Source: an uncultured Pelosinus sp.
GTDB taxonomy: Bacteria; Bacillota; Negativicutes; DSM-13327
Direction: 5' to 3'
Assembly: GCA_946415545.1 (NCBI GenBank)
Contig: CAMKSY010000002.1
Span: forward strand, 1 to 39,271
DNA: 39,271 nt
A program made the position numbers and the translations under genes. Positions 21,629 to 23,144 of the stretch are shown here, in pieces. Position 1 is the stretch's first letter. Each line of letters starts with the position of its first letter. The notes below the pieces were generated by a model that was not told the DNA's origin, ran no database searches, and saw only the letters and a list, made by a program, of their open reading frames with translations.

Positions 21629-22576
21629 ATGGAGATACGACATCTGGAATATTTTATAGAGGTAGCCCGCCAAAAGAGTTTCAGTAAGGCGGCTGACCAA
21701 ATGCATATTTCTCAGCCGTCGATTAGTAAAATAATTAAAGAGATTGAAGGTCATTTTGGAGTGGTGCTGTTTTATCGTACTACAAAGTATGTAGAATTGA
21801 CTGACGCAGGTGAAATTATTTTGGAACAAGCAGAGAAGATTGTTTCATCTTTTCAAAATATAAATGCTAATTTAGTTGGAGGATCTAATTTAAAATCAGG
21901 GAAGATACGGATCGGTATCCCGCCAATTACAGGTCTGACATCCTTCTCCCGTTTATTTGGCCCGTTTAAAAGGTCTTATCCAAACATTAACATACAGTTA
22001 TTTGAGTGCGGATCGAAGAAAATTGAAACGGGTATATTAGATGGTACACTAGACGTAGGTATCCTATGTATCCCACCTAGTGATCAGGAACTTTATGAAA
22101 TGATCTGCAGTATCCAAGATCCTCTGCGGCTTGTCGTCCATCCAGAGCACCCTTTTGCAAAATGTGAAATCATTGACTATGCCAATCTGATCAATGAATC
22201 CTTTGTGCTGTATAGTAATGACTTTAGTTTAAACGACCTCATTATTGATCGGTGCATGCAAGCCGGATTTCGCCCTAATGTTATTTTTGAAACGCTGCAG
22301 CTTGAACTGATGACCCAACTGGTTGCAGATCATTTTGGTATCGCTCTATTGCCAAGTACTGTTTGTCAGCACCTGGACGCTAATGCACTGACCTCTCTTC
22401 CATTAGCAGATCCGCCTGTCTATTTACAATTAGGAGTAGCTTGGAAAAAAGACCGATATGTTTCTCACGCCACCAAAGCATGGCTGCAATTTGTAAAAGA
22501 CAAGATCGATTTCGATGATAAGAAACCTGATATTACGCGGCATCAATGGTTTTGGGATATTGCAGCTCCATCCTAA
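21629..22576 (+). CDS. LysR-family transcriptional regulator with C-terminal DITRHQWFWDIAAPS tail
   Basis: MEIRHLEYFIEVARQKSFSKAADQMHISQPSISKIIKEIEGHFGVVLFYRTTK; tail extends beyond the normal effector domain. Confidence 0.93.
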   Translation: MEIRHLEYFIEVARQKSFSKAADQMHISQPSISKIIKEIEGHFGVVLFYRTTKYVELTDAGEIILEQAEKIVSSFQNINANLVGGSNLKSGKIRIGIPPITGLTSFSRLFGPFKRSYPNINIQLFECGSKKIETGILDGTLDVGILCIPPSDQELYEMICSIQDPLRLVVHPEHPFAKCEIIDYANLINESFVLYSNDFSLNDLIIDRCMQAGFRPNVIFETLQLELMTQLVADHFGIALLPSTVCQHLDANALTSLPLADPPVYLQLGVAWKKDRYVSHATKAWLQFVKDKIDFDDKKPDITRHQWFWDIAAPS

Positions 22577-22785
22577 ATAAAAACATTCATTTCATCTTTT
22601 ATCTGTATACATGGTAATTACCCTCGCCCTTTCCTGTGATCACTGCTTTTAGGCTACTTATTCCGAATCTAAATGCAATATATGCCGAATCCGTATTTCA
22701 CTTCCGATTGTAAGAGGAATACAATAAGATCAAGGCAAGCGTTATAAGTATGCTAAGCAGCCAACTTACGATTAGGAGGGGTATT

Positions 22786-22929
22786 ATGAGCAGTTCAATC
22801 AATGTTCTAGATCAGAATATCTTTGATAAGCCAGAAGAAGAATCTTCTATTGAAGTTAAGAAAGATGAAGTGAAAGTTGTGGATATCACACAGCAGCAAT
22901 GGTTTTGGGATCAGGCAGTCATGTCATAA
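22786..22929 (+). CDS. 47-aa small protein MSSSINVLDQNIFDKPEEESSIEVKKDEVKVVDITQQQWFWDQAVMS
   Basis: RBS AGGAGGGG, ATG 22786, stop 22927-22929, own terminator; tail matches the upstream LysR tail; missed by ORF track because of length. Confidence 0.8.
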   Translation: MSSSINVLDQNIFDKPEEESSIEVKKDEVKVVDITQQQWFWDQAVMS

Positions 22930-22973: not shown

Positions 22974-23002
22974 AGGTTTGGCTCTTCTGCCAAACCTTTT
23001 TT
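22974..23002 (+). terminator. Rho-independent terminator of the 47-aa gene
   Basis: AGGTTTGGCTCTTCTGCCAAACCTTTTTT. Confidence 0.85.
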
Positions 23003-23009
23003 CTACTTG

Positions 23010-23144
23010 TTATCTGGGACGCGGGGACAGGTTCCTTGTCCCAATTGGCTGCATCAAATATTTTGAGTAGATCTTCTCTTTTACCGGGTTCGTCTTATAC
23101 TTGCCAATGGATCTTCGTTTTTTTATTACCTCAAAAAATTCCAC
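23010..23144 (-). pseudogene. Nitroreductase N-terminal remnant, truncated at the REP-like element
   Basis: Minus strand with GGAG RBS and GTG start: VEFFEVIKKRRSIGKYKTNPVKEKIYSKYLMQPIGTRNLSPRPR*. Confidence 0.7.
23016..23042. repeat. REP-like palindromic element
   Basis: GGGACGCGGGGACAGGTTCCTTGTCCC; GGGACA/TGTCCC arms. Confidence 0.5.

Follow-up and report, generated by a model that had tools for sequence, protein, structure and literature searches.

Few families of bacterial regulators are as large as the LysR proteins, which are usually regarded as sensors of small molecules. Control of a LysR by a small protein is of a known kind. In Pseudomonas aeruginosa, the LysR regulator MvfR (PqsR) is kept from binding DNA by QslA, which attaches to its ligand domain (PMC6068238). 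The proteins described here resemble QslA as small proteins without a DNA-binding domain that act, as we infer, by binding a LysR. Compared by description only, QslA differs in its length of 104 amino acids and in also targeting LasR, and the source passages on it describe no terminal tail common to QslA and its LysR. In Methylomonas, the WatS peptides are encoded by unannotated ORFs of about 50 amino acids under the LysR WatR, several per genome (PMC10355033), and resemble ours in being short, LysR-linked and repeated within a genome. However, WatS1-4 have a transmembrane domain, and their proposed target is an efflux pump, whereas the proteins described here have no such domain and have their tail in common with the regulator. 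CidR and its control of LrgAB/CidAB in Staphylococcus and Bacillus offer a third comparison, since the LysRs that accompany our small genes score best against CidR and often adjoin lrgAB-like genes. Earlier work ties CidR and LrgAB to carbon overflow and pyruvate transport (PMC8805020), which hints at a possible connection with organic-acid metabolism at the loci considered here. The likeness has its limits: the papers found describe no small tail protein with CidR, and the LysR studied here scores below the CidR cut-off.

We could not find a description of a family in which a regulator and its small companions have a C-terminal tail in common, in matched length classes, and a literature search with the tail strings found no paper containing them. 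Our comparison establishes that such a family exists, that its tail always abuts the stop codon and is under selection, that its genes are linked to LysRs, and that tail length matches LysR clade.

The LysR and small gene of the window

The window, that is, the whole stretch of 39,271 nucleotides that was analysed, comes from an uncultured Pelosinus sp. (contig CAMKSY010000002.1) and contains a regulator gene followed by a small gene, with these features:

21629-22576, + strand: gene for a CidR-like LysR-type regulator of 315 amino acids with a C-terminal extension (Pfam HTH_1 and LysR_substrate; best NCBIfam model CidR)
22529-22573, + strand: C-terminal tail of the LysR, DITRHQWFWDIAAPS, residues 301-315, after a poorly conserved linker (translation, pN/pS)
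22654-22703, + strand: conserved non-coding block 5' of the small ORF, a probable promoter or operator (six-genome spacer alignment)
22774-22779, + strand: Shine-Dalgarno sequence AGGAGG, kept in orthologues with an ATG or GTG start (sequence, alignment)
22786-22929, + strand: gene for a small protein of 47 amino acids (ORF translation, orthologues)
22882-22926, + strand: C-terminal tail of the small protein, DITQQQWFWDQAVMS, residues 33-47, flush with the stop codon (translation, pN/pS)
about 22974-23002, + strand: intrinsic-terminator-like hairpin and T run 3' of the small gene (sequence; kept in 4 of 6 orthologous loci)

The first gene encodes a LysR-type transcriptional regulator by its domains, PF00126 (HTH_1) with 78 bits and PF03466 (LysR substrate) with 156 bits, both above their gathering scores. 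Its best NCBIfam model is CidR (NF047520), with 340 bits over residues 1-292; since this misses the curated cut-off of that equivalog, 415 bits, we call the protein only CidR-like. The Pfam substrate domain covers residues 88-292, and residues 293-315 are therefore an extension past the effector domain, as the preliminary description had proposed. The LysR ends in KPDITRHQWFWDIAAPS, and the small gene, which begins after a gap of 209 bp, translates as MSSSINVLDQNIFDKPEEESSIEVKKDEVKVVDITQQQWFWDQAVMS, each up to its stop codon. Translation bears out the earlier observation that the two proteins end in a shared tail: what they have in common is exactly 15 residues, DITxxxxFWDxA..S followed by the stop codon, and an identical stretch of 15 nucleotides, CAATGGTTTTGGGAT, lies at 22544-22558 in the LysR gene and at 22897-22911 in the small ORF. 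The small ORF had also been described as a dedicated gene with a ribosome-binding site and a terminator of its own, and the AGGAGG, the hairpin with its T run and the conserved orthologues in same-genus genomes agree with that description. A search for a LysR-box dyad around the window's own pair found none common to the orthologues. Beyond the terminator, at 23010-23144 on the - strand, lies the remnant of a nitroreductase gene, broken beside a repeat-like ggacgcggggacaggttccttgtccca stretch; the same nitroreductase is intact, with 202 amino acids, in a relative (L050, 1767-2375).

A protein tail flush with the stop codon

Among 101 relatives searched, the pair of LysR and small ORF is present in 7 of 8 same-genus genomes, with both tails conserved in the orthologues, and further small ORFs elsewhere carry the same tail on unrelated N-termini. 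The tail ends about 15 types of small ORF, of 36-60 amino acids, in Pelosinus, Sporomusa and relatives, and in every member it occupies exactly the last 15 (or 16) residues before the stop codon. Small ORFs with a conserved tail do exist beyond the window, and both their number and the constant flush position go further than the preliminary description. The DNA pattern of the tail has matches in 11 of the 383 genomes of the class, against none for the reversed pattern used as a control, and on these counts, together with the 7 of 8 same-genus genomes with conserved orthologues, we rejected a chance origin of the shared tail.

When 85,488 species were scanned with the 15-residue pattern, the 15 matching stretches came exclusively from Pelosinus, Sporomusa and two Bacillota MAGs; at least one of these MAG loci (L061) is identical in sequence to that of a relative (L140, genome G009). 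Profile searches found a 16-residue form, DITxTKEFWxxLAxxS before the stop codon, both within the genus and in a different family of the same class, and this form also reaches a second class of the phylum. Of the weak profile matches in other families, those in g228 and g325 lay far from any C-terminus and were dropped, and a scan of viral contigs for the 16-residue form found none. When nine small proteins of the family were scanned against Pfam and NCBIfam, none had a match above a curated cut-off. The tail is also carried in cis by two separate LysR lineages, that of the window and that of G009/L061. By sequence comparison, the small gene of the window is a member of an apparently undescribed family of LysR-linked small proteins.

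Selection falls on the tail. Across seven orthologues of the window's small gene, pN/pS is 0.03 in the tail and 0.44 in the N-terminal part, and because this ratio is low while synonymous positions change freely, the tail is selected as protein. The LysR of the window has values of 0.11 in the body, 0.64 in the linker before the tail and 0.15 in the tail itself, and the 16-residue family gives 0.15 for the tail and 0.61 for the rest. The BtuF-adjacent family departs from this pattern, with 0.40 for the tail and 0.21 for the rest, and a single divergent tail among its members is the apparent cause. The N-terminal parts of the small proteins are mostly hydrophilic, and among 10 small proteins examined, none contains a stretch resembling a transmembrane segment, with the best 19-residue hydropathy window below 0.5. 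AlphaFold models of the two cis-tailed LysRs leave the tails undocked, with pLDDT of about 30-50, from alignments of 10 rows that are too shallow to decide docking.

Linkage to CidR-like LysRs

The roughly 15 locus types are our own grouping, by neighbours and N-terminus. Nine of the 15 directly adjoin a CidR-like LysR, at about 25-280 bp, in tandem or divergently. The small gene lies in tandem downstream of the LysR in the window, before lrgAB in Sporomusa and in family f16, and before a comB-like gene; it lies in tandem upstream of the LysR where it follows metX or metY in Sporomusa; and it is divergent from the LysR for the 16-residue form and in G009. A tenth locus type is divergent from a LysR of another type. 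Such an arrangement is seen in G029 (L110, 3998-4255 and 4350-5234), and it suggests that the LysR link may extend beyond CidR-like LysRs.

Genomes hold only 1-5 CidR-like LysRs, and the adjacency of nine of 15 types to one of them has a binomial estimate of 2e-20, which is overstated because some locus types share descent. A CidR-like LysR is present in 22 of 22 tail genomes of the class, against 112 of 383 class genomes (p 4e-13); these p-values carry no phylogenetic correction for shared descent and are indications only. The preliminary description had left room for LysR tails unrelated to any nearby peptide, but tailed LysRs do go with nearby small ORFs, and the LysR link is strong.

The LysR tree adds a correspondence between tail length and regulator. 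The LysRs that adjoin 16-residue genes form one well-supported clade across two classes, and two genomes in which the 16-residue genes are unlinked still hold a LysR of that clade (L167 for G041, L160 for G534), and G049 holds one of its sister clade (L153). In a family of the second class, the 16-residue form is present in 4 of 8 genomes that have a LysR of the 16-residue clade and in 0 of 40 that lack it. The spacer between divergent LysR and small genes contains a dyad, ACTAT-N11-ATAGT, of the LysR-box (T-N11-A) form, the T-N11-A positions of which are kept in both classes; the dyad fits the expectation that the LysR would control the small gene.

Several members have no adjacent LysR and lie next to BtuF-like, MFS or MutT genes, and either partner can be missing from a locus. 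In the Sporomusa met-type locus, the small gene after metX has been kept and the LysR lost (L057, 5634-5822; L098, 3992-4288), and at the ComB-type locus the LysR is kept and the small gene gone (L162, L164, L165). The ComB-type LysR locus is a natural presence/absence pair in close relatives (L162 against L163; L164 and L165 against L147). G041 holds two genes with the 16-residue tail about 2 kb apart (L138, 2619-2762 and 4755-4916), far from any CidR-like LysR. The lrgAB-type LysRs of Sporomusa (L051, L063, L064; P0007, P0010, P0011) have MDIDI(V/I)A.. as their C-terminus, possibly a truncated remnant of the tail, and the small gene lies just 3' of them.

Candidate partners of the tail

A terminal motif with a free carboxylate on otherwise unlike proteins looks like a docking motif. 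Since all members found are small ORFs or CidR-like LysRs, and since the length class of the tail corresponds to the LysR clade, the partner that requires the fewest assumptions is the LysR; given this pattern and the precedent of QslA, we propose a LysR-linked feedback or cross-talk peptide that would act in trans and sometimes in cis. The reading we prefer, at somewhat under an even chance, is that these are LysR-linked small regulatory proteins with a C-terminal tail that docks most likely to the LysR itself. The small soluble proteins (36-60 amino acids), encoded with CidR-like LysRs and probably under their control, would then pair an N-terminal part that varies and is mostly hydrophilic with a docking tail, 15 or 16 residues long, that ends in a free serine. 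The tail would most likely bind the LysR, for which the effector domain is the obvious site, and would tune it in a feedback loop, putatively as a co-inducer or as an anti-activator peptide. In two LysR lineages, that of the window included, the cis tail would serve as a built-in ligand with which the small protein may compete. Mimicry, titration and a docking tag, which the preliminary description had put forward, remain the best class of explanation, with binding presumed. Its picture of a peptide copying the LysR tail does not hold in general, because the LysR has no tail in most loci.

The main rival places the partner elsewhere. The tail may be a tag that is read by a third protein, such as a protease adaptor, a chaperone or a scaffold, and that the LysR and the small proteins carry independently, in which case the small protein would titrate that partner or would just be unstable. 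C-terminal degrons and docking tags typically present a conserved C-terminus that is exposed. Both cis tails are modelled as flexible, and a third-party reader would also account for the members without an adjacent LysR and for the LysRs without a tail. A general tag, however, would be expected on many functionally unrelated proteins, whereas only small ORFs and CidR-like LysRs were found to carry it, the family is confined to genomes with CidR-like LysRs, and tail length follows the LysR clade; we consider a third-party reader unlikely. The degradation tag suggested earlier is possible, but it leaves the confinement to CidR-like LysR genomes and loci unexplained. Third in order comes a role like that proposed for WatS, in which the small proteins would be members of the LysR regulon that act on neighbouring transporters or enzymes, and the LysR link would reflect co-regulation only. 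Transporters are frequent neighbours, with LrgAB, MFS, BtuF-like and EamA genes recurring nearby, and WatS1-5, LysR-controlled peptides of about 50 amino acids, are thought to tune an efflux pump (PMC10355033). Yet the neighbouring families are unrelated while the tail is constant, the small proteins have no predicted transmembrane segment, and the tail on two LysR lineages would be left unexplained; we consider this role rather improbable.

Two further readings fare worse. The fixed distance to the stop codon, the conserved aromatic and acidic residues and the variable N-terminal part would suit a nascent-chain arrest sequence: ribosomes would stall on reaching the stop codon, with cis control of the genes that follow. 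A leader peptide acting in cis is disfavoured because nothing constant lies downstream, and we rejected it on that ground: the window's small gene precedes a terminator, while elsewhere the next gene differs between loci and often, in several cases, has the opposite orientation. The motif, which varies in length by one residue, is likewise found at the end of a regulator of 315 amino acids; we rate arrest as very improbable. The preliminary description had also considered a RiPP-like precursor, and a short gene with a conserved aromatic C-terminus would suit either such a precursor or a secreted signalling peptide. The 36 neighbourhoods contain no recurring maturase, protease or exporter, the small proteins have neither a signal peptide nor a hydrophobic segment, and the same tail occurs on an intracellular LysR. 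Because no maturase recurs, the RiPP reading is disfavoured, and with no conserved modifying enzyme adjacent across those neighbourhoods we dropped the RiPP precursor as a candidate; a RiPP or secreted peptide strikes us as barely credible.

If the tail does dock to the LysR, it may tentatively be seen as part of a new LysR ligand system, although we hold this broader claim to be doubtful: an encoded C-terminal peptide would be the key, presented either in trans, by small proteins, or in cis, by two LysR lineages, in classes of 15 and 16 residues matched to LysR clades. Unlinked loci, next to BtuF-like, MFS or other genes, could in such a system feed one LysR through tail-bearing small proteins of their own. 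The family enlarges the set of small proteins left unclassified by annotation. If the proposal is true, encoded peptides would tune one branch of the LysR regulators, and nature would supply both cis and trans versions for comparison.
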